Source: a bacterium
Lineage (GTDB): Bacteria; Patescibacteriota; Minisyncoccia; UBA6257; JAUSGH01
Direction of reading: 5' to 3'
Assembly: GCA_030649055.1 (NCBI GenBank)
Contig: JAUSGH010000014.1
Coordinates: forward strand, 1 to 37,108
DNA: 37,108 nt
Below are positions 959 through 35,277 of the stretch, one piece after another. The position numbers and the translations under genes were made by a program. Numbering within the stretch: the stretch's first letter is position 1; every line of letters starts with the position of its first letter. Under the pieces are notes generated by a model. It was not told where the DNA came from. It saw only the letters and a program-made list of their open reading frames with translations, and did not search any database.

Positions 959-962
959 TTAT

Positions 963-2213: not shown

Positions 2214-3152
2214 CTACCTCATTGCCGCTTGCACAATGTTGTCTAAAAGCTCGGCGGGTGGTAGGCCGAAGGCGCGCGCCTCCTGCGGAACCAAGCTCGT
2301 TTCCGTCATGCCGGGGATGGTGTTGATTTCCAAAACATAAATTTTGCCGTTTGCATCCATAATCATGTCCGTGCGCGAAACGCCGCGGGCATGAATGGCG
2401 CGGTGTGCCGTAAGCGCCGCGCGCTGAATTGCTTTTATTTTTGCTTCCGGAAGATTGCGCGGCGGCGTGACTTCTTCGGATGCGTTCGGAGTGTATTTCG
2501 CATTAAAGTCAAAGAAGACGCTGCCTTTCAAAACAATCTCCGTCGGCGGAAGTGCTACGGTTTTTTTATGCCCTGAGCTTGTCGAAGGGGCGATCTCCAA
2601 TACCCCGCACGTGAACTCGCGGCCGGAAATAAACTGCTGCGCGACGATGTTTGGTGAGCATTGTTTTGCTTTTGCAATTGCTGCCGGAAGCTCGGCTGCG
2701 GTTTTTACAATACTCACCCCGACGCTTGATCCGCGGTCGGCCGGTTTTATTACAACGGGAAATGTTTTGATTTTCGAGGGGTCCATTTCCGGAGGCATAT
2801 TTAGCCCGGCATTTTTAAATGCCTGCGCCGCCGCAATTTTATCCATACCAAGGCGGCTCGCTTTGGCGTCCGATCCGGTGAAAGGAACGCCAAGCGACTC
2901 CAGCAATGCCTGAATCGTGCCGTCCTCGCCATATTCGCCGTGCATGGCGATGAATGCGAGGTCGTAGTCGCGTTTGAGCGTTTCGGGCGCAACCGGCCAT
3001 TTGCCGTCTTTGCCGATGACCATCGGCGTCGCGACATATTTTTGCGGATCAAGATTTTTCACTACCATCGCCCCACTTTTCAGTGACACCTCATGTTCGG
3101 CGGACGGTCCGCCCATGAGGACTGCGATGCGGAGTTTTTTTGTTGGTTGCAT
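2214..3152 (-). CDS. ddl: D-alanine--D-alanine ligase
   Basis: A 312-residue ATP-grasp ligase that joins two D-alanines for peptidoglycan precursor synthesis in the cytoplasm. Visible landmarks are LMGGPSAEHEVSLKS (12-26, N-terminal substrate site), AMHGEYGEDGTIQ (69-81), VVIKPADRGSSVGVS (133-147, ATP-grasp lysine and glycine loop) and the metal-binding stretch TDMIMDANGKIYVLEIN with NTIPGMTETS (261-286; Asp262, Glu275, Asn277). Length is normal for Ddl. A strong Shine-Dalgarno (GGAGG) lies 7 nt before the ATG, inside the end of the upstream coiled-coil gene, whose stop is 2 nt away, so they form one transcript. Residues 189-194 (PSTSSG) come from a dispersed repeat at 2571-2589, inserted in a loop before the conserved LPPTEI segment. 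Confidence 0.95.
   Translation of the reverse strand: MQPTKKLRIAVLMGGPSAEHEVSLKSGAMVVKNLDPQKYVATPMVIGKDGKWPVAPETLKRDYDLAFIAMHGEYGEDGTIQALLESLGVPFTGSDAKASRLGMDKIAAAQAFKNAGLNMPPEMDPSKIKTFPVVIKPADRGSSVGVSIVKTAAELPAAIAKAKQCSPNIVAQQFISGREFTCGVLEIAPSTSSGHKKTVALPPTEIVLKGSVFFDFNAKYTPNASEEVTPPRNLPEAKIKAIQRAALTAHRAIHARGVSRTDMIMDANGKIYVLEINTIPGMTETSLVPQEARAFGLPPAELLDNIVQAAMR
2571..2589 (-). repeat. Dispersed CCCTTCGAC/GCTCAGGG repeat inside ddl
   Basis: The plus strand reads CCCTGAGCTTGTCGAAGGG, the reverse complement of the form seen in infB. It lies in frame in ddl and encodes PSTSSG at residues 189-194. It belongs to the family also found in infB, valS, cca, the GT87-like gene and the OB-fold gene. 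Confidence 0.85.
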
Positions 3153-3154
3153 AT

Positions 3155-3394
3155 TTATTCCTCCGACCCAAGCCGATGTTCTACGACCCCTTTTTTCTGT
3201 TCAATAGTGGACCGCAGTTGTTCAACTTGCGCGGTTAGCTCACGTTGTTCTTTCTCGTCTTGTGCTTTGGCGAGCTGTTCGGTAAGCGCTTCCAATCTCT
3301 CCTGCTGTGTTTGTAAGTACTGTATGTCCCAATCCGCAACCCCCACTTCTTGTGGTAACTGTTCCTCTAACCCCTTCGGCATTTCTTTGCTCAT
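3155..3394 (-). CDS. Small coiled-coil protein of unknown function, upstream of ddl
   Basis: A 79-residue charged protein. I do not recognise a family. From about residue 25 to 70 it is an uninterrupted run of Glu, Gln, Lys, Leu and Arg (LQTQQERLEALTEQLAKAQD and onward) with heptad-like leucines, predicting one long coiled coil. It has no membrane segment or signal peptide. The gene starts 26 nt after the 3' end of tRNA-Ser on the same strand and ends 2 nt before the ddl start. It is probably transcribed with tRNA-Ser and ddl, and its last codons contain the ddl Shine-Dalgarno. No clear Shine-Dalgarno precedes its own ATG. Confidence 0.7.
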   Translation of the reverse strand: MSKEMPKGLEEQLPQEVGVADWDIQYLQTQQERLEALTEQLAKAQDEKEQRELTAQVEQLRSTIEQKKGVVEHRLGSEE

Positions 3395-3420
3395 GGTAGG
3401 AATTTATTAATGTTTAATTT

Positions 3421-3514
3421 TGGCGGTGAGGGAGGGATTCGAACCCTCGATACGGATTTAAACCCGTATAGCAGGTTAGCAACCTGTCGCCTTTAGCCAC
3501 TCGGCCACCTCACC
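3421..3514 (-). tRNA. tRNA-Ser (GCT)
   Basis: A class II tRNA on the minus strand. The 7-bp acceptor stem is GGTGAGG (3508-3514) with CCTCACC (3425-3431). The anticodon loop TTGCTAA gives GCT, there is a long variable arm, and the T arm is GAGGG-TTCGAAT-CCCTC. It ends with discriminator G and an encoded CCA (3421-3423). It is the only one of the eight tRNAs in the window with CCA in the DNA. Confidence 0.96.
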
Positions 3515-3570
3515 AATATGTATACAGCGTACTAAAAAGGGGATTTATAAGCAAATAAAAAGCAACAACT

Positions 3571-3599
3571 TTGACATTCAAGGCGAAAAAGTATAGTAT
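3571..3599 (+). promoter_or_regulatory. Sigma-70-type promoter of infB
   Basis: TTGACA at 3571-3576, then 17 nt, then TAGTAT at 3594-3599 (alternative -10 TATAGT at 3592-3597). The infB ATG begins 8 nt after the -10 box and there is no Shine-Dalgarno, so the infB message is predicted to be leaderless or nearly so. Confidence 0.7.
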
Positions 3600-3607
3600 T
3601 AAGCGAT

Positions 3608-5050
3608 ATGAAGCGCCCACCGGTTATTGTTGTTGTCGGACATGTGGATCACGGAAAGACCACGCTTCTTGACTATATCCGCAAGGCAAACGTCGCCTCC
3701 CGAGAGGTGGGGGGTATTACGCAGTCCATCGGGGCTTATGAAGTGGTACATCCTTCGACAAGCTCAGGAAATAACGAGCGCATGACGTTTATTGATACCC
3801 CTGGACATGAGGCGTTTTCTAAGATGCGACGTCGCGGCGCGAACATCGCAGACTTGGCAATTTTGGTTGTCGCAGCGACCGACGGCGTGCAGCAGCAAAC
3901 AAAAGAGGCCATTAAGATGTTGCAGGAAACTGAAACGCCGTTTGTGGTTGCTATTAACAAAATTGACTCGGCCGGCGCGGATGAACAGAAGGTGAAAAAT
4001 GAACTGATGCAGGCCCAGGTGTTCCTTGAGGGGTTCGGAGGCAATACTTCTTGGCAGGCCATTTCGGCAAAAACCGGCAAAGGAGTGAGTGAACTGCTTG
4101 ATTTGTTGCTCTTGGCGGCAGATTTGGAGGAGCTCACGTATGACCCTGCGGCAGTGGCGAGCGGCTACGTGCTTGAAGGAAAACGCGACGGCAAGAAGGG
4201 AATTGTCGCGACGGTTATTTTGAAAGATGGGACGCTGAAAGTCGGTGACATGATTCAGACCGGGACCGTGTCGGGAAAAATTAAAATATTGGAAAACTTT
4301 TTAGGTGAACGTGTTGATGAGCTTACCCCTTCAAGTCCGGCGCGCGTTTTGGGATTTGAGGCGCTTCCGACGGTTGGCGCGGAGTTTCACGCCGCGAAAG
4401 CCCTTGAAGCGATTATGCGGGTTATTGCGAAGGCGCCGGAGCGTGTTGTGAAACAAAGACTCGCGGAAGGCGAAGCGGAGTTGAATCTTATCCTCAAAGC
4501 CGATGTTTCGGGATCGCTGGAGGCACTCTCCGGCATTATGAAAAGTTTGCCGCACCCGCCCGAGCTTCGCGTTGCTGTTATTAGCGAATCCGTTGGCGAC
4601 ATTACGGACGGCGACGTGAAAGACGCTATCGGTCATCACGCCACCATCATCGGTTTTCGGACGCAGGCGACAAAAGCTGCTGAGGAGCTTGCCCGCGCGC
4701 AAAGAATTGACATCGTGCAATCGGAGATTGTGTATGACCTTGTGAAGGCGATTGAGGAACGCCTGAAAATAAAGGCGCGAGAAAAATCGCTGGGTATTCT
4801 TGAAATACTCGCCGTGTTCGGGCGTAAGGGAAAGGCGCAGATTATCGGCGGTAAAGTCACCGAAGGAGAAATTAAAAATAACGCGGAGCTGGAAGTGACG
4901 CGCGGCGAGGTACTTCTTGGCAGCGGAAAAATTATTAACCTGCAGCACCAGCGTGTTGACGCACCGGTAGTTGTGGCAGGGAAGGAGTGCGGACTGCTTT
5001 TCGACGCAGAGATAGAGGTGAAGGTAGGGGATAGACTTGTCATGCGATAA
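3608..5050 (+). CDS. infB: Translation initiation factor IF-2 (short form without N-terminal domains)
   Basis: A 480-residue GTPase that brings fMet-tRNA to the ribosome during initiation. It begins directly at the G domain: G1 GHVDHGKT (11-18), switch I GGITQSIGAY (35-44), G3 DTPGH (63-67), G4 NKID (117-120) and G5 SAKTG (about 153). Domain II and the C-terminal fMet-tRNA-binding domains follow. The N-terminal extension found in model bacteria is absent. The ATG is preceded by a promoter but no Shine-Dalgarno. The stop is followed after 1 nt by rbfA, so both ribosome-linked genes form an operon. Residues 49-54 (PSTSSG) come from a dispersed repeat (3752-3768) that fills the hairpin loop between switch I and the strand leading to DTPGH. 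Confidence 0.96.
   Translation: MKRPPVIVVVGHVDHGKTTLLDYIRKANVASREVGGITQSIGAYEVVHPSTSSGNNERMTFIDTPGHEAFSKMRRRGANIADLAILVVAATDGVQQQTKEAIKMLQETETPFVVAINKIDSAGADEQKVKNELMQAQVFLEGFGGNTSWQAISAKTGKGVSELLDLLLLAADLEELTYDPAAVASGYVLEGKRDGKKGIVATVILKDGTLKVGDMIQTGTVSGKIKILENFLGERVDELTPSSPARVLGFEALPTVGAEFHAAKALEAIMRVIAKAPERVVKQRLAEGEAELNLILKADVSGSLEALSGIMKSLPHPPELRVAVISESVGDITDGDVKDAIGHHATIIGFRTQATKAAEELARAQRIDIVQSEIVYDLVKAIEERLKIKAREKSLGILEILAVFGRKGKAQIIGGKVTEGEIKNNAELEVTRGEVLLGSGKIINLQHQRVDAPVVVAGKECGLLFDAEIEVKVGDRLVMR
3752..3768 (+). repeat. Dispersed CCTTCGACAAGCTCAGG repeat inside infB
   Basis: CCTTCGACAAGCTCAGG in frame, encoding PSTSSG at IF-2 residues 49-54. It has the same sequence as the copy in ddl, in the orientation giving the same peptide. 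Confidence 0.85.
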
Positions 5051-5051
5051 T

Positions 5052-5402
5052 ATGAAATTCCATCGCAAAGAGCGTATCGCAGAACTTATCCGCGACGAGT
5101 TGAGTAATTTTTTCTTGCGCGAGTTGGAGTTTTCCGGGAAGGTTTTGACTATTACAACCGTTGAAGTGTCGGGAGATTTGAATCACGCGAAAGTGAAGGT
5201 GAGTATACTTCCCTCCGGCGGAGAGGAAGATATTTTAAAGAAACTTATCAAAATGCGCGGGCATTTCCAGCATTTGTTGAATTACAAGATGAACATTCGT
5301 CCGATGCCGGAGATTCGGTTCGAAATTGATCATGGGCTTGAAAAAGCCGCCGTCCTTGAGAAGGATTTTATTCAGATTGAAAAAGAGGAGAAAGGGCGGT
5401 AG
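5052..5402 (+). CDS. rbfA: Ribosome-binding factor A
   Basis: A 116-residue RbfA, the small KH-like protein that assists late 30S subunit maturation. It opens with FHRKERIAELIRDELSNFF and continues with LTITTVEVSGDLNHAKVKVSI, the usual RbfA core. The strand-helix pattern ending in PEIRFEIDHGLEKA also fits. I chose the ATG at 5052 because a TTG at 5037 would only add five residues overlapping infB. The start lies 1 nt after the infB stop, and infB-rbfA is a common gene order in bacteria. Confidence 0.9.
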   Translation: MKFHRKERIAELIRDELSNFFLRELEFSGKVLTITTVEVSGDLNHAKVKVSILPSGGEEDILKKLIKMRGHFQHLLNYKMNIRPMPEIRFEIDHGLEKAAVLEKDFIQIEKEEKGR

Positions 5403-6342: not shown

Positions 6343-7887
6343 ATGATCAATCAGCAATTACTAGATTACATTAAGCAATCACTGGCGCAGGGTTCAGGTA
6401 AGGACTTCATTAAAAGTTCTCTGATTGCGAGTGGTTGGCAAGCGGCGGATATTGATGAGGTGTTTGGTTCTTTGGTTGATGCTTCCCGTCAATCACCCAT
6501 AAAGAAAGTGAAGAAAGATAAAGTTAAGAATTGGAAGTACGGTTTGGGCGTGGGTGTTACCATCGGCGTAGCGCTGGTTGTTGTAGATCTGTTTACTATG
6601 GGTCTTTTGAGTATCTTGCTGAATGCAGTATTGCTCCCCATTTTTTATCCTATTAATTATTTCTACCATATTTTCACAAATGAATGGATTTTTTGGGGTA
6701 GTATTTTATTGTCCGGACTTCCTCAATCTGGTGGATCAATGTATGGCGACAGTGGTCCAATGTACTTTTATGAAACTATTTTATATTTCTTCAGTTCAAT
6801 TTTATTCAGCGTATTAATTGTTAGGAAGGGTTTGAAAAAGGGGTTCGTGTACGGTTATTTAATAATTTTATTAATAGCGAGCATATCCGCACTAGTGTCC
6901 GGAGTAAAAATGATTAAACAAGCTAATGACAACTCTGATAGCAAAGTGAGTTTTTTGCAAGATCTAGATAGAAATATAGAAGTTATCGCAAAAAGTCCAC
7001 TAGATACCAAGCGTGAGGTTGACGGACGGGCGATTTATTTTTACGCGCGTCAACATAATAACTTTGATCGATATAGTTCTTTGAATTTAAGTTTTAGACG
7101 TTACAATTCCCCAATTATTCCAGCGATTAATCCTGTGTATGATAATGGTGGAAGTGTAACGATTGGTGCTAGCGGGGTTAATAAGATTGTGATTGGTTTG
7201 TCGCCCGCCGAGGAACCTTTTGTGAAAGTAAGTAAATTTTATATTCTCGGCAGAACTAATCCGGGCCCCACAAGGTTGGAACTTAATTATTCAGGTAAAT
7301 ACGAGATTGAGCTCGAACTACCTATTCCTACTGATTTTGATGAGCGTGGCAAGATCTTAGTACGCAACATCGGCATATCTCCAGCCGGATTACCGAAAAT
7401 TCAGGTGAGCTTTTTACCCGTTGTGGCAAGGCAATCAGCTGTATCTATAAAATCGACCTCATATGATTTAATGAGTGAAATACTTGCGGCGTTGAATATA
7501 AAAAATGTGAGCTTAGTAAAGACATCGCTTGAGTGGAATACGGGAAAGTATGAAACGCCGAATGGAAAAATGACTAAAGAGGTATTTAATGGATACGGCT
7601 TTGAGGTTACGCGGTCGGCGGTCGAAAATGAAACCTTGAAGGCAATGGGAAAAACAGACGATCTAAATATCGGATCACGCTTTGGCGGCGCATTAAGTAA
7701 TCGAGGGTTTGTATTTGACGGGGTTAATAGTGGGGATGCTACATTTCATGCGACGTTGGGCTATGCAAAGGGGGATTTCATTTGCGTGATTAAGACCCGG
7801 ATAACCACGCCGCCTGAACAGGTGGGTGATCACACTCCTGTTGCCACGGTCGACACTGTGGCTTGCGCGGACAAAAATGATAAATAA
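6343..7887 (+). CDS. Multi-span membrane protein with UBA-like N-terminus and exported C-terminal domain
   Basis: 514 residues. Residues 1-45 (LLDYIKQSLAQGSGKDFIKS, then GWQAADIDEVF) form a short helical module of the kind that precedes membrane segments in several Parcubacteria proteins, similar in pattern to UBA-like bundles. A basic linker (50-65) is followed by hydrophobic segments at about 68-102, 143-161 and 167-187. A long C-terminal part of about 320 residues is mostly polar and beta-like and probably faces outside. No catalytic motif is seen. TATAAA at 6331-6336, preceded by TGA (extended -10), ends 6 nt before the ATG, so the message may be leaderless. The gene is AT-rich like the next two and probably belongs to the same surface-protein cluster. 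Function unknown. Confidence 0.8.
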   Translation: MINQQLLDYIKQSLAQGSGKDFIKSSLIASGWQAADIDEVFGSLVDASRQSPIKKVKKDKVKNWKYGLGVGVTIGVALVVVDLFTMGLLSILLNAVLLPIFYPINYFYHIFTNEWIFWGSILLSGLPQSGGSMYGDSGPMYFYETILYFFSSILFSVLIVRKGLKKGFVYGYLIILLIASISALVSGVKMIKQANDNSDSKVSFLQDLDRNIEVIAKSPLDTKREVDGRAIYFYARQHNNFDRYSSLNLSFRRYNSPIIPAINPVYDNGGSVTIGASGVNKIVIGLSPAEEPFVKVSKFYILGRTNPGPTRLELNYSGKYEIELELPIPTDFDERGKILVRNIGISPAGLPKIQVSFLPVVARQSAVSIKSTSYDLMSEILAALNIKNVSLVKTSLEWNTGKYETPNGKMTKEVFNGYGFEVTRSAVENETLKAMGKTDDLNIGSRFGGALSNRGFVFDGVNSGDATFHATLGYAKGDFICVIKTRITTPPEQVGDHTPVATVDTVACADKNDK

Positions 7888-7904: not shown

Positions 7905-10900
7905 ATGAATGACTCTCGTAAAGGCTTTATTGTCCCGATAATCTTGATTGTTGTCGCGCTTCTTATCGCTGGAGGAGGCGCGTATTTAAGGTATCGGCAG
8001 GAGAATAAACTAACGCAGCAGAGTAGTGAAACTGTAGGCTGGAAAACGTACACTGATTCAAAGGTTGGATTTACATTTCAGTATCCGAGTAATGCTTCGG
8101 AAAACGCAAAAGAGGGTTTGGCATTTAGGGTTACGGTGAATGACTTAAATACTATGGGTGATGCGCCGTTGGGTTACGGCATAGACAACGCTTTAAAAGA
8201 TAAAAATGCCCTATCTCAAGGAGATCCAAGCGTGCCTTTGGGTATGCCTGTGGCGGGTTCTTTAAAGATGTTGACCGTTAAGAGCGCGTTAGCGAAAGAG
8301 CTGGTTCTTCTCCAGGAGTTGGACGTCTGTGATGTAAGATTCGATCGCCAAGCGGTCATCTACAAAGATCATTATCAAATAATATTATCCTGGAGCTACA
8401 ATGGAGCCGATGCTTTGAAGGGAACTGATATCCAGAAAAATAATCCGAGCTATTTTGGCGGAGGTGAATGTAGTAAATCCGAAAATATTTTTTGGACATA
8501 CAAGGATAAGCGCGATAGCAGCGCGGATGTTTTTTATGCAGACCTTGTAGCCGGCAAAACTGATCCAGTGAGTCAAAACTGGTTTACTGCTTTTGACAAA
8601 ATTGTTAAAACTTTTCAGTTTACGAATGTTGAAGTTCAAATAGCGCCTAAAGCGCCTTCGAACGAAACAGCTGGCTGGAAAACATACATGAACACGTCCG
8701 ATGGGTATAGTATTTCCTATCCAGATTCTTACCATGTTGCATACGGCGACTCCCTCTTTAATTATGATGAAAATAAGTATGAGCGTGGCAATCCTAATGG
8801 TGTAAAGATTCAGGTTCAACGACACAGTAAAGAAAATTTTGGTTATGATTTAGCAACGAACGAGGGTGTCAAAAAGTTTACTGATAAATTGAATGCGGAT
8901 CGCATAAAAAATGATGCTATAGAAAGTTCAAATTCAACTCCGATCACTCCATCTTCACTAGGTATTTTCAAATTCAAAAATAAAGTGCTTGGTGGCCCCG
9001 GAGGAGCGTTTGACGTATATTATACTTTTGCTAGCAGTGACACCTATTACATGGTTCTAGTTTGGGGAGAAACTAATGATCAGCAAACAGTTAATCAAAT
9101 TCTTTCGACAATTAAAATAAGTGTAACTCTCACAACTCAACCGCCTATAGCAAGTGAAATCCCAAACATCATAAAAAATATAACGGTTGATGCCGAAACC
9201 GGAAGTCAAAAACCCGAAAACAATTCGCAAGTTATTGATCAGGTCAGAAAAGATGTACAGAACGGTAAGTTATTGTGGTTCAAAGACCCTGTAGAAGTCT
9301 CTAAAAAATACGGAATCCGTTTTGGAATTGGCGCGGGTGCACAATATGTTTTAGGACAAAAAGCAATTACGGGTGGAGATTCAGGTTTAGGGCACTCGAC
9401 GGTGTTAGCTACTTACAATTCTAAATCGTACAGAATTGCCCTAATCACTGAACTTAGTCAGCCATCGATTTGGGTCATAAATGCTGTCACAGATGTTCAA
9501 CAGGAAAATAAATTGAGGGTAAATTTCTTTCAAGCCGCTTCTACATACGATAATGACGGAGTAGGTCATCAAGAAATTGTAAGTAAATTTGGTGACGGGA
9601 CTACGATGTATTATCTCAATGTCAAAAATCCTGTAGTTTCCTTTTACCTCAATCAGCCAGCAAATCCATCTACTGTAAATTCTGGTTCAATTATTGTAAA
9701 AGTGAATAATACAGTGCTTAGCGGAACTACTGCAAAAGCTGTTACGGAGCAAGCGTCTTCTCACGGAGCAACATTTCCAATGTACTCGGTTCAAGTTGAT
9801 CTTAGTGGTGTAGCGAATTTGAAAAATTATGCCGGACAAAATATTCAAATTATTCTCACAGATAAAATTAAGGACAATTCTGGTAATCCACTCCAGCAAT
9901 GCGATAGAGCATATAATAAAGGCGAATGTATAACAGATACTTCTGGTCAAAAAATAAAAGTTTTTGGCGCAGAATTAAAATTGTATTCTCAAACACCCTT
10001 AATCACCGTGTTGAGTCCGAATGGCGGTGAAGCGTACAGGGCGGGCGATACCGTGAATATACGTTGGAGTTCGAATTCGAATACCTCAAATTCTGTAAAT
10101 ATACGCCTACATCGAATCGACGAAACGGCAACGACCGACATCGCAAAGGGTGTTCAAAACAAGGGGAGTTATAGTTGGACCGTTCCGCAAAGCAACCCCG
10201 GAGATTCAATTATTCCATATATAGTTTGCGTAAGCGTTCCGGATGCTCAAGGTGTGGATAATATTGATAATAAGAATGCTGACTGCAGCGATAATAAATT
10301 TACAATTACCTCGGCACAAACTATCCAGAGTTCAAGTTTAAATTCAGGGACTATTTCGGTCCGCGCTATTGTGGCAAATATTAATGAGGTTGGAGACAAG
10401 TACGGATCGTACGGAATGAAATTTTCGCAGTCGAAATTAGCGGAGGTTGATCAGGCTCTTCAAAAACTTAATGTTTTCGTACAACAGAGTTCGTATGGAA
10501 AGACGCAGTTGCAAGGGAACACCATGGGAGTTTATGAACTCGGGAGCGGTGTGTGCAATCATACATCCTACGGAGACAGGGTTGATGATTTAATACAACG
10601 CGCGTTGCAAAAAGCAGACGCGCAAACGCCATTTGTGGATTATTCATATTATCTCATCGTCCATCCGATGCCGGATTGTCCCGATGGATCATTGTGGACT
10701 TTCGAGGGCAAAGGCCAATTTGTGTTGTATACACTAAATGGTAGAACTGTTCACTTGCGAGGGATACATATTTCTGATCTATCGGATGAATATCTTTTTC
10801 ATGAATTTGGCCATAGTTTGGCGTATCAACCGAATACTGGCATCGGCCATCCTGATTATATAAATTGCCCAGTAACTACCTCCGGCGGTGTTACAACGAT

Positions 10901-11402
10901 AGCGCTTTCTAACTCATGTCCGCATGTTTACGATTGGAATAATGGAAATATACCCGTGTTTACAATGATGTCCGCTAAAAGGGGGATACTATCCGATTAC
11001 AGCGCGATTGAAAAAGAAATTATTGGTTGGCTTGTTGGTTCTGATTTTGTGATAACAACAAGCGGACAGTATAGTTTGTCGCCCATAGAGCAGAGTGGTC
11101 CCGGACCGAAGGCGCTTAAAATTCCAATATCGGGCACCGATTTTACCGCGTATGTTTCTTTTAGACAGCCGGTTGGATATACGTATCCCGACGCGCCATC
11201 GAATAAACCGAACGGCGTGACAATTGACATATCAAGCGCAGGGACAAAGAGTTTTCTCGTGACTAACAATGTGAATATGGACGCGCCGCTTCAAATAGGC
11301 GCATCGTACCGCATAGGTACGAGCGGCCCTTTTGTTACGGTTACGAATATTTCAAACAATCTAGCGTCTGTGACTTTGTCATCAATTGCTCTGCCGAGGT
11401 AA
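7905..11402 (+). CDS. Large membrane-anchored secreted protein with zincin-type metalloprotease domain
   Basis: 1165 residues. A short basic start and a hydrophobic anchor (IVPIILIVVALLIAGGGAYL, 9-28) place the rest outside. Two PsbP-like modules follow, recognised by GWKTYTDSKVGFTFQYP (45-61) and GWKTYMNTSDGYSISYP (257-273). Near residues 698-795 a beta-sandwich resembling the Kre9/KNH Ser-Thr-rich domain begins with LSPNGGEAYRAGDTVNIRW. The C-terminal third carries the zinc motif HEFGH (966-970), a possible third ligand further on in GIGHPDY, and a possible Met turn in VFTMMSAKRG. This fits a metzincin-like peptidase; family assignment (M6, M11 or other) is uncertain. The gene lies 17 nt after the previous one and is AT-rich. 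A role in cell-surface interaction is inference. Confidence 0.8.
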   Translation: MNDSRKGFIVPIILIVVALLIAGGGAYLRYRQENKLTQQSSETVGWKTYTDSKVGFTFQYPSNASENAKEGLAFRVTVNDLNTMGDAPLGYGIDNALKDKNALSQGDPSVPLGMPVAGSLKMLTVKSALAKELVLLQELDVCDVRFDRQAVIYKDHYQIILSWSYNGADALKGTDIQKNNPSYFGGGECSKSENIFWTYKDKRDSSADVFYADLVAGKTDPVSQNWFTAFDKIVKTFQFTNVEVQIAPKAPSNETAGWKTYMNTSDGYSISYPDSYHVAYGDSLFNYDENKYERGNPNGVKIQVQRHSKENFGYDLATNEGVKKFTDKLNADRIKNDAIESSNSTPITPSSLGIFKFKNKVLGGPGGAFDVYYTFASSDTYYMVLVWGETNDQQTVNQILSTIKISVTLTTQPPIASEIPNIIKNITVDAETGSQKPENNSQVIDQVRKDVQNGKLLWFKDPVEVSKKYGIRFGIGAGAQYVLGQKAITGGDSGLGHSTVLATYNSKSYRIALITELSQPSIWVINAVTDVQQENKLRVNFFQAASTYDNDGVGHQEIVSKFGDGTTMYYLNVKNPVVSFYLNQPANPSTVNSGSIIVKVNNTVLSGTTAKAVTEQASSHGATFPMYSVQVDLSGVANLKNYAGQNIQIILTDKIKDNSGNPLQQCDRAYNKGECITDTSGQKIKVFGAELKLYSQTPLITVLSPNGGEAYRAGDTVNIRWSSNSNTSNSVNIRLHRIDETATTDIAKGVQNKGSYSWTVPQSNPGDSIIPYIVCVSVPDAQGVDNIDNKNADCSDNKFTITSAQTIQSSSLNSGTISVRAIVANINEVGDKYGSYGMKFSQSKLAEVDQALQKLNVFVQQSSYGKTQLQGNTMGVYELGSGVCNHTSYGDRVDDLIQRALQKADAQTPFVDYSYYLIVHPMPDCPDGSLWTFEGKGQFVLYTLNGRTVHLRGIHISDLSDEYLFHEFGHSLAYQPNTGIGHPDYINCPVTTSGGVTTIALSNSCPHVYDWNNGNIPVFTMMSAKRGILSDYSAIEKEIIGWLVGSDFVITTSGQYSLSPIEQSGPGPKALKIPISGTDFTAYVSFRQPVGYTYPDAPSNKPNGVTIDISSAGTKSFLVTNNVNMDAPLQIGASYRIGTSGPFVTVTNISNNLASVTLSSIALPR

Positions 11403-17881: not shown

Positions 17882-20662
17882 CTACCAAGGCTCAACAATC
17901 AGCCATTTGCTGTCAGATGCCGGAAGTTTTTGGAAAATTTCTTCCGTGATGTGCGGCATAAAGAGGTGGAGCATTTTGAGCGATGCGGTAAGCACGTGCA
18001 GGAGGATGGCGTTTGTGTGTTCGTCCGGTTGCGTTTTTGATGCTTCAAGATAGACATCGCAGAAATCGTGCCAAAAGAAATCGTAGAGGCCGTGAAGCGC
18101 GGGGCCGAGTTCGTAGGAGGCGATTTGTTTTTCCAATAGTTTTTTTGTTGCTATGAGTTTTTTGAGTATTTGTTTGTCGGCGGCTGTTTTTGGCCTCGGC
18201 GTGTCAAGGTAGCCCTTCGACTTCGCCGCTGCTCCGCTCAGGGGATAATTACTTGCTGAGCTTGTCGAAGCATTACCTACGCGCCCTAACACAAACCGGC
18301 TGGCGTTCCAAATTTTGTTTGCAAACTTCCTGCCGGCCATCACCGCGGCTTCATCCCAGCGGATGTCTTGGTTGCCCATGGTTTGCCAGATGATGCCGAA
18401 TCGCGTCGCGTCCGCGCCGTATTGGTCAATGTATTGGAGCGGGTCAATGCCGGTGCCCAAACTCTTGGACATGCGCTTGCCGTCTTTTGTAAGAATTGTT
18501 CCGTGAATCAAGACATCGGGAAACGGCGTTTTACCCATGAACTCTAAGCCGGAAAAAATCATGCGACCAACCCAGAGGTTGATGATGTCGCGCGCGGTGA
18601 TAAGGACATTGGACGGGTAGAACTGTTTCTTATCGGCGTCGTTTAACCCCGCAAACGGCCAAAGCGCTGAGGAGAACCATGTGTCTAAGACATCGGTTGC
18701 CAACTCAAGGAAATCACCGCCGCATTTTTTGCAGTTTTGTTTTGAGACGCTTAACTGCGCTATCGATGCGTTCTCAAATCGAAGTTCCTCAATGCCATCT
18801 GCTCCAAGTTTTTTGAGTATGCCAAACAGTCTTCGCAGCGTGTGTCCGTGTGAAATGACGACAATATTTTTGTGTCCGTGTTTTTCTTTGTGTTCGGCGA
18901 GGATTTCTGATATCCGTTGCTCCACCTCTTCCACTGATTCCGCTCCGGGAATCTGCGCACCTTTATGATGACGGCGCTCGAATAATTCCGTTAAGTTATT
19001 TTTCATCCGATCTTCCAGTGTTGTACCTTCCAGCACACCGAAATTTCTTTCTCGCAGCCGTTTATCGGATATCACCTCAACGCCGAGTTCTTTTGCGATG
19101 ATATCCGCGGTTTCCTTTGCGCGTTTAAGGTCTGAGCTCACAATGAGGTCGATGTTACTTCCTTTGAGTTTTTTTGCCGCATCGCGCGCCTGCTCCTCTC
19201 CTTTTGATGTTAGCGACTGGTCGATGCCTTGCCCCTGCATGCGTTTTTCTGCATTCGCCGCCGTTTCTCCGTGACGGACAAAAAACCAGTTGCCGGTTAC
19301 TTTCGGTTCAATGACGGTATCTCCGCAGCTCACGCAGTACCCGACCGGTATGCGATGACCCCACCAAATTTGTCGCGAGATGCACCAGTCCTTGATATGT
19401 TTCAGCCACGCAAAGAACGACTTCTCAAAGTTTTTTGGAATGATGCGCGTTTTTTTTGATTTTACCGCCTGGGCAGTTTTTTTCGCGAGCTCCGCCATTT
19501 TCAAAAACCATTGATTGGAGAGCAACGGCTCAAGCGTTGTGGTACAGCGGTAGCAGGTTGCGACGTTGTGCGTGTATGGTTCAACTTTTTCCACGAGTCC
19601 GGCAGTGGTAAGCTCGGCGACAACTTTTTCCCGCGCTTCCGCGACTTTCAGGCCGCGGTATGCTTCCGGCACTGCGTCGGTCATGCGGCCGCGTTCGTTG
19701 ATGATTTCATAGATCGGCAATTTGTGGCATTCACCGATTTCGGCGTCGGTCATGTCATGGGCAGGAGTTACCTTCACCATGCCTGTGCCGAACTTCGTAT
19801 CAATGGAGTCGTCAGCGACAATCGGGATATCGCGGCCAACGAGCGGCAGGCGCACCGATTTCCCGATGAGCGTTTTATAGCGTCTGTCTTTGGGGTTCAC
19901 TGCCACGCCGGCATCGCCGAGCATGGTTTCGGGGCGAGTGGTGGCGACAATAATATAATTTATTCCCTGAGCTTGTCGAAGGGTTACATTATTGTCGTCC
20001 TTCGACTCGGTCTGCTGGCCTCGCTCAAGAACTAATGGGTACTTGATATAGAATAATTTCCCGGCTTCCTCCTTGTATTCAATTTCCAGATCTGACAGTG
20101 ATGTCTGGCAGCGTGGGCACCAGTTGACGATACGTTTGCCGCGGTAGATGAGGCCTTTGTTGTAATAGTGGATGAATGCTTTTGTGACCTCCTCGCTGTA
20201 CGCGGGGTCCATGGTGAAGCGTGTGCGGGACCAATCCGCCGAGGCGCCGATGCGTTTCAGCTGGTCCAGAATGATGTTGCCGTATTTTTCTTTCCACTCC
20301 CAAACTTTTTCGATGAATTTCTCACGCCCCAGATCAAAGCGGTTGATATTTTCTTTGCGCAAGTTTTTTTCCACCACGTTTTGCGCGGCAATGCCGGCGT
20401 GGTCAATGCCCGGAAGCCACGCGGTGGCGAATCCTCTCATGCGGTGGTAGCGGATGAGGATGTCGGAAATCGTTGCGTTTAACGCATGACCCATGTGCAA
20501 ACTTCCTGTGATATTTGGCGGTGGCAGCAATATTGTATAGTTTTGTTGCTTCTTTGCTTCTTTGCTTTCTTGCTTTCTTGACGAAAAGAATCCACGCTTC
20601 AACCACTCTGCGTAGATGCGCGCTTCAACGGATTTTGGGTCGTATTGGGGAGGGAGTTCCAT
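17882..20662 (-). CDS. valS: Valyl-tRNA synthetase with an inserted histidine-phosphatase domain
   Basis: Charges tRNA-Val with valine in the cytoplasm. Numbering is from the alternative ATG at 20692, which is in frame; I prefer the ATG at 20662 (residue 11, MELPPQYDPKSVE), because the first ten codons fall in a repeat tract. Landmarks: HMGH (66-69), the class I HIGH motif; CP1 editing region with TTRPETMLGD (251-260); WWGHRIP (443-449); KRMSKS (739-744); and a C-terminal anticodon-binding domain ending at 936. The zinc ribbon has CVSC (453-456) and CKKC (654-657), and between them lies a whole phosphoglycerate-mutase-like domain (about 467-650). In-frame short repeats add SRKQESKEAKKQQ (38-50), VTLRQAQG (236-243) and the segment 807-828. 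All synthetase motifs are intact, so it should be functional. Confidence 0.96.
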   Translation of the reverse strand: MELPPQYDPKSVEARIYAEWLKRGFFSSRKQESKEAKKQQNYTILLPPPNITGSLHMGHALNATISDILIRYHRMRGFATAWLPGIDHAGIAAQNVVEKNLRKENINRFDLGREKFIEKVWEWKEKYGNIILDQLKRIGASADWSRTRFTMDPAYSEEVTKAFIHYYNKGLIYRGKRIVNWCPRCQTSLSDLEIEYKEEAGKLFYIKYPLVLERGQQTESKDDNNVTLRQAQGINYIIVATTRPETMLGDAGVAVNPKDRRYKTLIGKSVRLPLVGRDIPIVADDSIDTKFGTGMVKVTPAHDMTDAEIGECHKLPIYEIINERGRMTDAVPEAYRGLKVAEAREKVVAELTTAGLVEKVEPYTHNVATCYRCTTTLEPLLSNQWFLKMAELAKKTAQAVKSKKTRIIPKNFEKSFFAWLKHIKDWCISRQIWWGHRIPVGYCVSCGDTVIEPKVTGNWFFVRHGETAANAEKRMQGQGIDQSLTSKGEEQARDAAKKLKGSNIDLIVSSDLKRAKETADIIAKELGVEVISDKRLRERNFGVLEGTTLEDRMKNNLTELFERRHHKGAQIPGAESVEEVEQRISEILAEHKEKHGHKNIVVISHGHTLRRLFGILKKLGADGIEELRFENASIAQLSVSKQNCKKCGGDFLELATDVLDTWFSSALWPFAGLNDADKKQFYPSNVLITARDIINLWVGRMIFSGLEFMGKTPFPDVLIHGTILTKDGKRMSKSLGTGIDPLQYIDQYGADATRFGIIWQTMGNQDIRWDEAAVMAGRKFANKIWNASRFVLGRVGNASTSSASNYPLSGAAAKSKGYLDTPRPKTAADKQILKKLIATKKLLEKQIASYELGPALHGLYDFFWHDFCDVYLEASKTQPDEHTNAILLHVLTASLKMLHLFMPHITEEIFQKLPASDSKWLIVEPW
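18213..18271 (-). repeat. Inverted pair of dispersed repeats in the anticodon-binding part of valS
   Basis: A long form with ends CCCTTCGAC...GCTCAGGGG (18213-18244) and a short form GCTGAGCTTGTCGAAGC (18255-18271) face each other across 10 AT-rich bases. Together they encode about residues 808-827 (STSSASNYPLSGAAAKSKG). Confidence 0.8.
18743..19294 (-). other. Histidine-phosphatase (phosphoglycerate mutase-like) domain inserted in ValRS
   Basis: ValRS residues about 467-650 form a complete domain of the histidine phosphatase superfamily. It begins NWFFVRHGETAAN with the phospho-acceptor His474 in RHG. It continues with SSDLKRAKETAD (second Arg, 524), RLRERNFGVLEG (acidic residue region, 545-556) and VVISHGHTLRRLF (second His, 615). 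All usual active-site positions are present, so phosphatase or mutase chemistry is plausible. It sits exactly between the two Cys pairs of the synthetase zinc ribbon and is in frame, with no stop or start of its own. Confidence 0.9.
19965..20029 (-). repeat. Inverted pair of dispersed repeats in the editing region of valS
   Basis: Short form CCCTGAGCTTGTCGAAGGG (19965-19983) and long form CCTTCGAC...GCTCAAG (19999-20029) face each other across 15 bases. The encoded stretch is ERGQQTESKDDNNVTLRQAQG (about 223-243), before NYIIVATTRPET. Confidence 0.8.
20544..20582 (+). repeat. GTTGCTTCTTTGC-type repeat in the 5' part of valS
   Basis: Tandem-like units of TTTGCTTC and CTTGCTTTCTTG, in frame and encoding SRKQESKEAKKQQ before YTILLPPPN. 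A related tract in the opposite orientation covers the start region of valS (20665-20701). Confidence 0.7.
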
Positions 20663-20664
20663 GG

Positions 20665-20701
20665 GCAAGAAATCAATAAAGCAAGAAAACAATAAAGCAA
20701 C
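20665..20701 (-). repeat. GTTGCTTTATTG-type repeat at the 5' end of valS
   Basis: On the minus strand it reads GTTGCTTTATTGTTTTCTTG followed by CTTTATTGATTTCTTGC, like the tract at 20544-20582 but inverted. It ends 2 nt before the preferred valS ATG, and no Shine-Dalgarno is visible. Confidence 0.65.
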
Positions 20702-29061: not shown

Positions 29062-29278
29062 AACATTTTCCGGTAAGGAAGTTGTGCGTATTCTGTGCCG
29101 CGCGTTTGGTTTTGTTTTTGTATCGCAGTGCGGGAGCCATGTGAAGCTGCGGAAAAGGGTCGGTGGGAAGGTATTAACGACCATCGTGCCGATGCATCGT
29201 TCGCTGGTGCGCGGCACCTTGCTTGGCGCACTTGAACTCGCAGAGGTGGACGAGGAAGATTTTCGGAAAGCGGCGTAG
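29054..29278 (+). CDS. hicA: HicA-family mRNA interferase toxin
   Basis: 74 residues, a dsRBD-like fold toxin that cleaves mRNA. GKEVVRILCRAFGFVFVSQC is followed by GSHVKLRK with the conserved catalytic His29, and by TIVPMHRSLVRGTLLGALEL, the usual C-terminal half with a second histidine. The ATG at 29054 is used because it fits the family start (MAKTFSGKEVV); it overlaps the hicB stop. Overlap and order imply translational coupling with the antitoxin. tRNA-Pro follows 48 nt after the stop. The pair looks intact. Confidence 0.85.
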   Translation: MAKTFSGKEVVRILCRAFGFVFVSQCGSHVKLRKRVGGKVLTTIVPMHRSLVRGTLLGALELAEVDEEDFRKAA

Positions 29279-29326
29279 CGCTTCAACTTGCAGCCGGAAA
29301 ACTTTTGCGGTAGGATATATTCGTTA

Positions 29327-29397
29327 CGGGCTGTAGTATACCGGTAGTACACACGCTTCGGGTGCGTGTAGACTGGGTCCAATTCCCAGCAGCCCGA
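29327..29397 (+). tRNA. tRNA-Pro (CGG)
   Basis: Acceptor CGGGCTG/CAGCCCG, anticodon stem CACGC/GCGTG with loop TTCGGGT (anticodon CGG), T arm CTGGG-TCCAATT-CCCAG. Discriminator A is followed by ATT, so CCA is not encoded. Confidence 0.95.
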
Positions 29398-29407
29398 ATT
29401 TAAGTTT

Positions 29408-29436
29408 TTGTCAAGTGCAAAAAGTTAGCGTATCTT
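29408..29436 (+). promoter_or_regulatory. Probable promoter of the GT87-like gene
   Basis: TTGTCA (29408-29413), 17 nt, TATCTT (29431-29436), between tRNA-Pro and the ATG at 29461. Confidence 0.55.
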
Positions 29437-29460
29437 TTAACCGATAGCGGTTTGTGCGAT

Positions 29461-30636
29461 ATGACTATGCCTTCGTTACTCTCGCGTTCTCCGCAACTGC
29501 GGATGTTTCTCGTCGCGATTGTGGCGGTTGGAATTGTGGGCGCCGCATTTCACGCTCTCGGTTTTTTCGGTGCGCCGATTAATTTGGTATATAGCGATGT
29601 GTTGGGGTTTTATGAGCGCGCATCGGCGCCGGGGTTTGCATATGTGAGTAAGCCGATAGAGTATCCGGTACTTACTGGACTATTCATTGAGGATGCGGCG
29701 CGCCTTGGAGGCAGCCGCGCGGGATACTACGTGGTGAGTATGCTCGCATTGCTGGGGTTTGCGATCGGGACGACGTACCTATTATATAAGGTAGCCCTTC
29801 GACCCGCTTCGCCGGAGCTTCAGCGAGGCGAGCAGGCTCAGGGAATAACGGTTTCGCGGTTGTGGAGGTATTGGATTTTCGCGCCGTCCATGTTTTTATT
29901 TGCTACATATAACTGGGACTTGATGGCTGTTTTCTTTTCGGTCGCGGCGTTCTATTTGGCATCGCGCGATCGCAGGGGACTTGCCGCGATTTTTCTTGCA
30001 TTAGGATTTTGCGCGAAGTTTTATCCGGTGCTGTATTTCATTCCGTTGCTGCTTCTTGCGACAACGTGGCGTGAATGGGTAAAGTTGTGCGCTATCTTTG
30101 GCGCAACCGCGCTGGTTGTGAATTTGCCGTTTATGCTCCTGAACTTTGACGGGTGGTCATATTTTTTCACGCTGAACAGCGCGCGGAACTCTAATCCGGA
30201 TTCCATTTGGACCATTCTAAGATTTTTCTTCTCCGACGCTGCGGTCGGAGTTCCCGCAATCAACGCAATTTCGCTCGGGCTTTTTGCGGCGGGATATTTT
30301 GGTATGCTTTGGAGATTTCGCCGCTCCCCGTTTCTTTACCTCTGTTTTGTGGCAACATTGCTTTTCCTCATCACAAATAAAATCTTTTCACCGCAGTATA
30401 TTTTATGGCTGCTGCCGTTTTTTGTGTTGCTCCCATCTGTGAAAAATTGGCAATTTTACGGACTTGAGCTTTCTAACATCGCGGTATTCTTTTCAATCTT
30501 GCCGTGGTTCTTTTTAGGCAAAGACATGTTTTATTTTTATCTCGCGAGTCCGTTTGTTATTTTGCGGCACGTTGTACTCACCATGCTTTTCGTGGGTGTG
30601 ATGAAAAAACTCAACAATGGCTTGCGTGCGGGATAA
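29461..30636 (+). CDS. Multi-span glycosyltransferase, GT87-like
   Basis: 391 residues from the ATG at 29461; a TTG at 29452 would add three. There are about ten hydrophobic segments. An early extracytoplasmic loop holds an acidic residue in VYSDVLGFYERA, then IEYPVLTGLF. Later IFAPSMFLFATYNWDLMAVF and LGFCAKFYPVLYFIPLLLL resemble GT87/PIG-M-type polyprenyl-phosphate-dependent mannosyltransferases, as does TNKIFSPQYILWLLPFFVLL near the end. It would add a sugar to a lipid or surface glycan on the outer face of the membrane; donor and acceptor are unknown. Residues 112-128 (ALRPASPELQRGEQAQG) come from a long dispersed repeat in a loop between membrane spans. Confidence 0.75.
   Translation: MTMPSLLSRSPQLRMFLVAIVAVGIVGAAFHALGFFGAPINLVYSDVLGFYERASAPGFAYVSKPIEYPVLTGLFIEDAARLGGSRAGYYVVSMLALLGFAIGTTYLLYKVALRPASPELQRGEQAQGITVSRLWRYWIFAPSMFLFATYNWDLMAVFFSVAAFYLASRDRRGLAAIFLALGFCAKFYPVLYFIPLLLLATTWREWVKLCAIFGATALVVNLPFMLLNFDGWSYFFTLNSARNSNPDSIWTILRFFFSDAAVGVPAINAISLGLFAAGYFGMLWRFRRSPFLYLCFVATLLFLITNKIFSPQYILWLLPFFVLLPSVKNWQFYGLELSNIAVFFSILPWFFLGKDMFYFYLASPFVILRHVVLTMLFVGVMKKLNNGLRAG
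29795..29843 (+). repeat. Long form of the dispersed repeat inside the GT87-like gene
   Basis: Ends CCCTTCGAC and GCTCAGGG enclose a 32-base internal part with its own GC-rich inverted repeats (CGCTTCGCC, GGCGAGC). In frame within a hydrophilic loop. Confidence 0.78.
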
Positions 30637-32163: not shown

Positions 32164-32256
32164 CTGACTTCTCCAAAAAGGAACCTTTATATTATACACG
32201 AAAGTAGGTTTTTGTCAATAGGTGGTATTTTTGGGGTTTTTTAGTGATGCAGTGTG

Positions 32257-32265
32257 TGCTATAAT
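32257..32265 (+). promoter_or_regulatory. Extended -10 promoter of the exported-protein pair
   Basis: TGCTATAAT at 32257-32265 is a perfect extended -10 element. The -35 region is only T-rich. The ATG at 32276 follows 10 nt later with no Shine-Dalgarno. Confidence 0.6.
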
Positions 32266-32275
32266 AAAAATAATT

Positions 32276-33763
32276 ATGTCCACCTACGGCGCCTTTCATA
32301 TATATCGCAAGTTTTTTATTTTCGGCACGCTGCTGGTTTTGGTGGCGCTTGTTTTGCCGATGTCCGTGATAGCCGCTGAAAAGACCAGTCCAAATGCGGA
32401 GCATAGCGTGCTGCCCGCCCCCTCGGCGCCTTCAACCGGCGCTATTGGGTCGTTGCCCGCGCCGCAATATCAGGCGGCGGATGTTATTTATCAAATTGAA
32501 CATTTGCAATCGCTTGTGGATCGCGCGGCAAAAAGTCCGGATGGGAGCGCCGAAGCGTATCCGCTTGATTTGTTCCAGATTCCGGGCGCGCCGCAGTTAC
32601 GCGTTGCCGCAGATAATGGCGTGTTGACAGTCGGTCTTTCGGGAACCGGTGTTTATAATGTGAGCGGCACTTTGCTTGGTGCGGAAAATGCCGCGCTCGG
32701 GAAATTCTCCGGTTCCAATTTCAGCGTAACGCTTGACCAATACGCGGATAAAAATCCGCGGGCGCTTGTTGTTTCGGTGACGTATCTTCCTGAAAAAACA
32801 CCGATATTTTATGAAGGTCCGACGGGAAGCGGGGGGTTGAGATTGCCTCCTCCGATTCCGACCACCGTGCCGGCTCCCGCCGAAGGTATTTCCGAACGGA
32901 TTTCTGAGCCGGTGATTACCTCTTCCGGACCAAGCGTGTCTAAGTCGCCGGCAGAAACCCTGCCGCCCATCGGCGAGCCGCCAACAGAGTCTCAATCAGG
33001 GCCGGAGATTGTGCCGCCCGAAACAGCAACGGAGGACATTTCCGTGACCTTAGAAATGGTGCCATCCGAAGCCGGGGCGGTCGCGAAATCCGAACAAGCC
33101 GCGCCGACGGAAGAACGTATTGAGTTTAATTTCGATTTTATACCGGAATCGGCCGATAGCGACACCCAATTAATTATTGGTACGGATATTGCTCCGCTCG
33201 GCAGATCATTCGGCGATGGAGAACCTCTGAATACGCGACCGAGCGTCGGTGAGCTTCTTGTATCTGACTTTTTGCCTCCGCTGTTGACGACCGGGCCGAT
33301 TGTCACAGATCAACAACCCCCTATTATCGGCCTTGGCGAGAGCGAACAAGTAAACGCTATTGCTCCGGAAGTGAGTGGAGATCTTGAGTTTGCCGATGAA
33401 GGTGAAGCTCCCGCGACCCAAAAAAACTTATCGGATGGATTGTCAGCGGTGGGAGGCGGCACCTTTGACGGCGACATGCTGAATTTTTCCTCTCAAGATT
33501 TTCGTTTGCCATCGGGTCTTGTGGTTGGCGACATTTCGGTCGCGAGTAACTTGCCGCAATTTTTGACACCGACGCAAATCGTTATATCGGATTTACCGGC
33601 ACCAATCATCGGTAAGGGTTCTCCTCTGCAAATAAATGCCGTTGTTCCGGATGATGGTCCGGCGCCGGAGCCGGTAGATGTTACGCTTGAATTAGTTGAT
33701 GGAGTTGCCGATGCTGTTCAAGGCGCCGTCGAAACCATTTATGAAACCCTGCGATTTCAATAA
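32276..33763 (+). CDS. Exported low-complexity protein with an internal repeat
   Basis: 495 residues from the ATG at 32276; an in-frame start at 32222 lies upstream of the -10 box and is unlikely. A signal peptide is clear: basic YRKFF, hydrophobic IFGTLLVLVALVLPMSVIAA, then mature AEKTSPNAEH. The mature protein is rich in Pro, Ser, Glu and Thr and contains an internal duplication: IVTDQQPPIIGLGESEQVNA and IVISDLPAPIIGKGSPLQIN. A small beta module (LFQIPGAPQLRVAADNGVLT) lies near the N-terminus. No catalytic motif is seen. It precedes another exported protein by 20 nt, so they are probably co-transcribed and work together at the cell surface. Function unknown. Confidence 0.75.
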   Translation: MSTYGAFHIYRKFFIFGTLLVLVALVLPMSVIAAEKTSPNAEHSVLPAPSAPSTGAIGSLPAPQYQAADVIYQIEHLQSLVDRAAKSPDGSAEAYPLDLFQIPGAPQLRVAADNGVLTVGLSGTGVYNVSGTLLGAENAALGKFSGSNFSVTLDQYADKNPRALVVSVTYLPEKTPIFYEGPTGSGGLRLPPPIPTTVPAPAEGISERISEPVITSSGPSVSKSPAETLPPIGEPPTESQSGPEIVPPETATEDISVTLEMVPSEAGAVAKSEQAAPTEERIEFNFDFIPESADSDTQLIIGTDIAPLGRSFGDGEPLNTRPSVGELLVSDFLPPLLTTGPIVTDQQPPIIGLGESEQVNAIAPEVSGDLEFADEGEAPATQKNLSDGLSAVGGGTFDGDMLNFSSQDFRLPSGLVVGDISVASNLPQFLTPTQIVISDLPAPIIGKGSPLQINAVVPDDGPAPEPVDVTLELVDGVADAVQGAVETIYETLRFQ

Positions 33764-33783
33764 GGCAATTAAAAACTAAAATT

Positions 33784-35277
33784 ATGATCCACATTATTCA
33801 ACGAAGAAAAATTTTAACCGGAGTCGCGATCGTGGCAACATTATTTCAATTAATGCCGTTCGGCGCGTTCGCGCAGGTTGCGGGGATTAAAGCGTTGCCT
33901 TCGGTGCCGGTGCCAATGCCGGCAAGCGCGCCGGCGCCGGCTGATCATCCGGCGGTGCCTCAGCCCACCCCGTCATCCGGCGGCTCTGCTGCTCAACCGA
34001 CACCGCTTCCGACTGCCGGGTCCGGTGGCGCGGGAACTCCAATTGACAACGGGGGATTATGGGCCGGTTCGCCAATTGGCACCGCGCCGGCGAAGCCGTT
34101 ATATACGGTTGCGGCTGTGGTGCCAAAAGTGGCGTTAGATGCTATTGCAACACGTTCCACAATCGGCGCGGTTCGTTTTAAAGATATTTTGAGCATACAA
34201 GGTACTAGCATCGCTCAAGTTGTAGCGATGCGCGATGGTGCGGTCGTTAAATTTACATTTACTCCGGCGGGTGGTTCAAAGATTGTGAATGCGAATTTCC
34301 AACGATCGGGGTTTTCCGGATTTTTCAGTTCGCAATCTCCGTGCTCAATATTGGGTGACAGCGCGGTATGCGCGACAACCGGCCCAGGAAATGTTCATTT
34401 TGACGTTATGCCGACGAATAGTTTTGGGGATGTGGCGTATAACATAGCAAAAATTGATCCCAGAGATCTTGGCGATCTTACGACTCCGACAAGGGCATTC
34501 TATGATGAGTTGCTGAACGAGATTCATGGGGCGGGGTCCGGAGCCGAACAATTCGCCAAACTTCCCGATGGTACGGTTGTAAACATGATTGATGTTATTC
34601 TTGGCGAGAATCTCAAGGCCCCAAACACCGTGCTTTTGGAGGCGAAAAGCGAAATCGCTAACATCCTCGTACTGGCGCTCAAGAGAGAGAGAGAATGGGC
34701 GAAAATGTGTCTTGGTAGGGATTCAGCCGCGGCAAGAGGAAGCAATGATTCTAGTTGGCTGAGCGGGGATGTCTCAAGTATGGCTGATGGAATGACCGAA
34801 ACGCTTAAACAGGCGGGAAAAGAAAAATTATGCAGTGACGCGGAGAAAATTTCCGAGCAGATTGATGGATTTTTGAGCGCGCTTCAAAGTGGTCCGTTGG
34901 GTCTATTTACTTCCTGTAAGTTGGACTTCGCTCAGCTCATCGCCGCGGCACGGGCGGGTTACGCGGCACGGGGAGGTTCTGAGCTTGACCCCAATATTGA
35001 GGCGCTACTTGCCGGCATGCCTGCCGATGATGTGATGATGGTCGCGCAAAAAGCGGACGCGGACGCGGCGCAGATCCGAAAGCTCGCGAACTTGGTTGGG
35101 GCCGCGAAAAGCGTGGGGTCAACGGATGATAAATCCGAAAAAGAAAAGGAGGCACTCATCAATGACTTGCGCGCAAGGGGTTCGCAATATACGAGTGCGA
35201 AAAACGAACTTAACTCTTGGTACGAAGTGGGATATGAGTCGCCCAATGGAGCTGTATCCTCCGCTCGTTCTCGTTGA
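33784..35277 (+). CDS. Exported protein of unknown function
   Basis: 497 residues. The signal peptide is ILTGVAIVATLFQLMPFGAF with cleavage probably after AFA (residue 30). Next is a Pro/Ala/Ser-rich linker (MPASAPAPADHPAVPQPTP, to about residue 105). A beta-type domain about 110-220 follows (DILSIQGTSIAQVVAMRDGA, then FTFTPAGGSKIVNANF). The rest is a mostly helical C-terminal part with several cysteines (CLGRDS, LCSDAE, SCKLDF). I do not recognise a family. It follows the other exported protein directly and ends in a strong terminator. Possibly a surface or filament component, which is inference. Confidence 0.75.
   Translation: MIHIIQRRKILTGVAIVATLFQLMPFGAFAQVAGIKALPSVPVPMPASAPAPADHPAVPQPTPSSGGSAAQPTPLPTAGSGGAGTPIDNGGLWAGSPIGTAPAKPLYTVAAVVPKVALDAIATRSTIGAVRFKDILSIQGTSIAQVVAMRDGAVVKFTFTPAGGSKIVNANFQRSGFSGFFSSQSPCSILGDSAVCATTGPGNVHFDVMPTNSFGDVAYNIAKIDPRDLGDLTTPTRAFYDELLNEIHGAGSGAEQFAKLPDGTVVNMIDVILGENLKAPNTVLLEAKSEIANILVLALKREREWAKMCLGRDSAAARGSNDSSWLSGDVSSMADGMTETLKQAGKEKLCSDAEKISEQIDGFLSALQSGPLGLFTSCKLDFAQLIAAARAGYAARGGSELDPNIEALLAGMPADDVMMVAQKADADAAQIRKLANLVGAAKSVGSTDDKSEKEKEALINDLRARGSQYTSAKNELNSWYEVGYESPNGAVSSARSR

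Follow-up and report, generated by a model that had tools for sequence, protein, structure and literature searches.

Aminoacyl-tRNA synthetases with extra domains are known. The isoleucyl-tRNA synthetase (IleRS) family NF040702 carries a GNAT domain and is likewise a synthetase with an additional enzyme domain, although this domain is other than a histidine phosphatase (HP). The RNase HI/acid phosphatase fusion (NF005567) likewise combines an HP of branch 1 with an enzyme acting on nucleic acids, but there the fusion is side by side and the partner is unrelated. The protein described here scores 185.7 against a cut-off of 1999 for NF040702 and 105.6 against a cut-off of 326 for NF005567. No report of an HP in IleRS or in valyl-tRNA synthetase (ValRS) was found in the open-licence PMC literature, and database entries with HP-bearing synthetases probably exist unremarked. 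Here we describe an HP nested in the ValRS encoded in the window, that is, the whole stretch of 37,108 nucleotides that was analysed, and its counterparts in related genomes.

A phosphatase domain in the zinc ribbon of ValRS

The valS open reading frame (17882-20692, minus strand) opens at a TTG, and the likely ATG lies ten codons further in (Table 1). Its product passes the curated valS threshold for a bacterial ValRS (TIGR00422, 870.8 bits, cut-off 612.1) and scores 942.2 with PRK05729 (cut-off 704). By motif reading, the HIGH and KMSKS motifs and the zinc-ribbon cysteines are all kept, and the reading frame is unbroken across the insert. An AlphaFold2 model of the 926-residue protein had a mean pLDDT of 82.7, and in a Foldseek search it matched the Thermus thermophilus ValRS structure 1gax over the full chain length (TM 0.76 by target). 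With HMGH and KRMSKS on either side of the insert, this agrees with the initial annotation, which had described a synthetase that is split and then resumed. Elsewhere in the window, large proteins encoded at 6343-7887, 7905-11402 and 32222-35277 have weak Pfam matches or none.

Table 1. Features of the window valS gene and its nested phosphatase.
Feature	Position	Strand	Remark
valS (ValRS) CDS	17885..20662	-	from likely ATG at 20662; start chosen on sequence only
HIGH motif (HMGH, 66) of synthetase	20486..20497	-	
Zinc ribbon, first half, CVSC 453-456	19325..19336	-	ORF numbering
Nested HP, branch 1, PF00300 positions 2-185	18734..19285	-	Pfam match
HP motif RHGET (R473, nucleophile H474)	19262..19276	-	
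HP motif SSDLKRA (second arginine R524)	19118..19138	-	
HP motif RLRERNF (acid/base E548)	19040..19060	-	
HP motif ISHGHT (second histidine H615)	18839..18856	-	
Zinc ribbon, second half, CKKC 654-657	18722..18733	-	ORF numbering
KMSKS motif (KRMSKS, 739), beyond insert	18461..18478	-	

The same annotation had placed a complete HP inside ValRS, between the CVSC and CKKC pairs, and both the domain and its position were borne out. Residues 470-653 match PF00300 (His_Phos_1) at 1.8e-48, with 165.2 bits against a gathering score of 21.7, and the full branch-1 catalytic set (R473, H474, R524, E548 and H615) is in place. The residue numbers first given for His474, Arg524, the acidic region and His615 are exact in ORF numbering, and the proposed span of 18743-19294 is correct to within a few codons. 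Profile matches and the catalytic-residue alignment rule out a chance or misread motif. Along the ribbon the order is CVSC-GDTVIEPKVTGNW-HP-SVSKQN-CKKC, with the HP forming the ribbon tip, and without the HP the ribbon has an ordinary length, comparable to that of an HP-free relative (L015, CxxC pairs at 415 and 433). GC3 is 0.48 in the HP and 0.61-0.62 in its flanks, a weak compositional hint that the domain may have arrived later. An assembly artefact, named at the outset as what might overturn the fusion, is ruled out as its source because independent assemblies of relatives show the same architecture.

The structure prediction proposed in the initial annotation gave only a weak model of the HP lobe when modelled alone (pLDDT 64), but its top structure matches were nonetheless HPs, namely BPGM, PspA, HFP (9mmh), TIGAR and PhoE. 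The best PDB matches to the domain were 9mmh (3.8e-18), PspA 4ij5 (2.2e-17) and PhoE 1h2e (2e-16). Such PDB neighbours are phosphatases for varied small molecules (phosphoserine, a riboflavin-pathway phosphate, glucosyl-3-phosphoglycerate), and for this reason the HP sequence names no substrate. Scores did not reach the equivalog cut-offs for dPGM, GpmB (118-120, cut-off 261), CobC (108-113, cut-off 162.9) or PspA (101.5-105.6, cut-off 350). The window genome (G000) encodes a third HP, free-standing and of another clade (C11:17438-18001, PF00300). It also has two cofactor-independent phosphoglycerate mutase (iPGM) genes (C9:17826-18452 and 29247-29897); most relatives have one.

Distribution and descent of the nested domain

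Relatives with the fusion had been thought possible, and they were found, mostly with the domain in IleRS. An IleRS-size ORF with an HP is present in 47 of the 61 genomes of the window's order, a count that uses ORF size as its criterion and of which about 20 were read and confirmed as IleRS. The domain, its active site and its placement were recognised from the start, whereas its group-wide occurrence, commonest in IleRS, was missed. When 117 genomes were sampled evenly across the phylum, long ORFs with an HP turned up in all 9 that belong to the window's class or order and in 12 of the remaining 108. HP-bearing IleRS is also seen in named records, among them one Candidatus Paceibacterota and one Yanofskybacteria metagenome-assembled genome, which makes Patescibacteria the probable phylum. 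In the window genome itself, IleRS (G000:C3) likewise has its CxxC pairs separated by an HP, at the same site as in ValRS, and the two HPs are 40% identical over their aligned part. Some lineages have tandem HP pairs in IleRS (1441-1551 aa). A second insertion site in IleRS follows the KMSKS end of the catalytic core and precedes the anticodon-binding domain (L183 of G425, L191 of G106 and L187 of G300); the last of these (767-5299, plus strand) contains three HPs, two of them in the ribbon and the third at this second site. Genome G004 has two IleRS-size ORFs with an HP.

An HP-bearing ValRS occurs in 2 of the 61 genomes of the order (the window genome and G057), with ten or so further cases in the phylum sample. 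The HP is near-universal in the order's IleRS and sporadic in ValRS. A contig scan by ValRS flank pattern, non-exhaustive and mainly of other phyla, found a nested HP in none of 76 ordinary bacterial ValRS loci. Other variations were seen among the ValRS genes. That of G004 (L011, 271-2820, minus strand) has a different insert of about 100 residues at the same zinc-ribbon site, ASCH-like by eye and with no Pfam match at 0.001, and that of G009 (L032, 903-4001, minus strand) has a methyltransferase-like domain at its N-terminus (PF08241, 2.5e-7). In family f26 of the same order, the ValRS of G045 (L028) and genome G025 have in-frame TGA at conserved Trp positions; the G045 ValRS frame contains 19 TGA and 1 TGG, and TGA is apparently read as Trp. 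A 2021 genetic-code survey listed Gracilibacteria and Absconditabacteria with UGA=Gly only (PMC8629427).

In a ValRS backbone tree computed with the HP cut out, the window ValRS falls within a 17-row clade (SH-aLRT 100) that has no other HP, and its nearest neighbour is the HP-free ValRS of G060 (65%). Mapping the HP state on this tree needs 7 changes, 6 of which are forced by supported branches. In the HP tree, the window HP groups with the ValRS HPs of G057 and G280 (98/91; support falls to 81/38 in the smaller tree that combines nested with free HPs), while the backbones of these two synthetases differ from the window lineage. The grouping of the three HPs despite differing backbones suggests that the domain may have moved between ValRS lineages. 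ValRS HPs form at least two well-separated groups in the HP tree. Origin of the window ValRS HP from the IleRS HP of its own genome is ruled out (AU p = 0.0025); a deeper common origin, with the ValRS trio placed together with the IleRS-HP clade, is compatible with the data (p = 0.55). The window ValRS would have gained its HP separately, with a pool of ValRS-type HPs as the source instead of the IleRS of the same genome.

Catalytic conservation and free-standing relatives

The catalytic residues are kept with few exceptions in both synthetases. Among 87 IleRS-nested HPs, one of them truncated, the R, H and R residues are present in all 87, the acid is E in 86 and D in one, and the second histidine is found in all 86 that reach it. 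Among 13 ValRS-nested HPs, R, H and R are present in 13, E in 11 and the second histidine in 12, the exception being G104. These rows were gathered by homology search, which gives a mild bias toward intact domains. Most positions outside the catalytic core vary widely in the alignment, and selection for phosphatase chemistry appears to be the most economical reading of this pattern. Beyond the universal HP core, the alignment has no substrate-specific or clade-specific residue signature.

When nested and free HPs are placed in one tree, the IleRS-HP clade (97/83) contains 24 nested and 9 free domains. All 9 free HPs belong to genomes with an HP-free IleRS (G011, G033, G052, G021, G041, G038, G405, G331 and G388), and the 28 free HPs of other genomes all fall outside the clade. 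HP-free IleRS was found in eleven genomes of the order and in 6 of the 8 class genomes examined. Within the order only, free HPs that belong to the IleRS clade occur in 6 of 11 genomes with HP-free IleRS versus 0 of 47 (1.1e-5 assuming independent genomes, although they are phylogenetically non-independent, with three from one genus and two from one family). Nested and free HPs of the same clade are mutually exclusive. Of the 17 genomes with an HP-free IleRS, 8 also lack a free IleRS-clade HP; with neither form present, the function is therefore dispensable. A single detachment as the source of all free IleRS-type HPs is disfavoured (p = 0.02).

For three of these nine free HPs, the gene is found between argS and ileS. 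The gene order is argS-HP-ileS in G331 and G405, with gaps of 1-14 nt, and argS-HP-x-ileS in G388, where one extra gene precedes ileS. In G121 and G379, argS lies upstream of an HP-nesting ileS with no HP gene between them. The HPs of G379 and G331 are closely placed in the HP tree (97/83; 93/77 when nested and free HPs are analysed together), so the main difference between these near relatives is the place of the HP, within ileS in one and immediately ahead of it in the other. Several free HPs do not adjoin ileS.

Possible roles of the nested phosphatase

On balance, we favour a bifunctional ValRS in which the tip of the zinc-ribbon hairpin has been replaced by a predicted active, small branch-1 HP that would be linked to Ile/Val-tRNA charging, whether nested or free. 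Some functional link is supported by the strict catalytic conservation, the recurrent insertion and the argS-HP-ileS operon form. The direct evidence lies with IleRS, and by analogy the link may extend to ValRS. The HP would transfer phosphate through a phospho-His474 intermediate, and its substrate would be a phosphomonoester made, bound or regulated in isoleucine or valine charging; examples would be by-product nucleotides, tRNA ends that are blocked or damaged, and inhibitory phosphates carried by the synthetase itself. Nesting would set the dose of the HP and its position relative to the synthetase, and the free HPs of sister genomes suggest that action in trans may also be possible. More tentatively, a dedicated synthetase-associated phosphatase, present inside IleRS singly or in tandem or encoded beside it, and recruited into ValRS more than once, might carry out an undescribed quality-control or regulation step of translation that is specific to branched-chain aminoacyl-tRNA synthesis. 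Of the substrates mentioned in the initial annotation, an alarmone found no support, since a RelA/SpoT domain is absent from the window genome and from 13 of 40 relatives in the order, HP-bearing genomes among them. The other, an adenylate, does not belong to the phosphomonoesters on which HPs usually act.

The HP could instead have a metabolic job unrelated to charging, the ribbon tip being simply a permissive and well-expressed site for a compact domain. We consider this rather unlikely, though it has evidence in its favour: the tip accepts other inserts, such as the unrelated one of about 100 residues in the G004 ValRS, some free copies lie away from ileS, and the genomes are small. Against it, the recurrent insert is an HP and not an assortment of enzymes, both synthetases have received it, IleRS at two different sites, and two lineages carry its free form in an argS-HP-ileS operon. 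A metabolic role as the cell's phosphoglycerate mutase is extremely improbable. HP family membership and small genomes would fit such a role, but iPGM (PF06415) is nearly universal in the order (58 of 61 genomes) and duplicated in the window genome, which makes it unlikely, and the equivalog scores are far under their cut-offs.

The location of the HP within an inserted element of the synthetase, together with the loss of the second histidine in the G104 ValRS, would be compatible with a non-catalytic spacer, either structural or in contact with tRNA. This is improbable, since the catalytic residues have stayed essentially invariant across very deep divergence, unlike most other positions. Among ValRS lineages the domain is sporadic, recurrent and mobile, and in this it resembles a resistance trait; a role in defence or detoxification would involve removal of phosphate or phosphoramidate from synthetase-directed inhibitors, or reversal of an inhibitory phosphorylation of the synthetase. 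Its near-universal presence in the order's IleRS is more housekeeping-like, neither an inhibitor nor a kinase has been identified, and we regard such a role as very improbable.

The favoured link to charging points to an undescribed connection between a phosphatase and protein synthesis. An intact phosphatase is found repeatedly in the same hairpin of two synthetases, and in several genomes it lies free between argS and ileS instead. This offers a comparative system for phosphate chemistry around Ile and Val charging in minimal genomes, and it also bears on how enzyme domains settle inside essential enzymes.

Compared with described systems, the window HP is like the branch-1 phosphatases PhoE, PspA, TIGAR and HFP (9mmh) in fold family, in its size of about 185 residues and in the RHG...R...E...H arrangement; unlike them, it sits in a tRNA synthetase and falls below every NCBIfam equivalog cut-off. 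The synthetase shares its whole fold, HIGH and KMSKS motifs and zinc-ribbon cysteines with bacterial ValRS (TIGR00422; 1gax), but differs from the ordinary enzyme in holding a 184-residue enzyme domain in the zinc ribbon. Its closest counterparts are the HP-nesting IleRS from its own order and class, which have the same ribbon site and catalytic set in a closely homologous synthetase, whereas their HPs form a clade separate from that of the window ValRS, and tandem copies and the second insertion site are features of IleRS.
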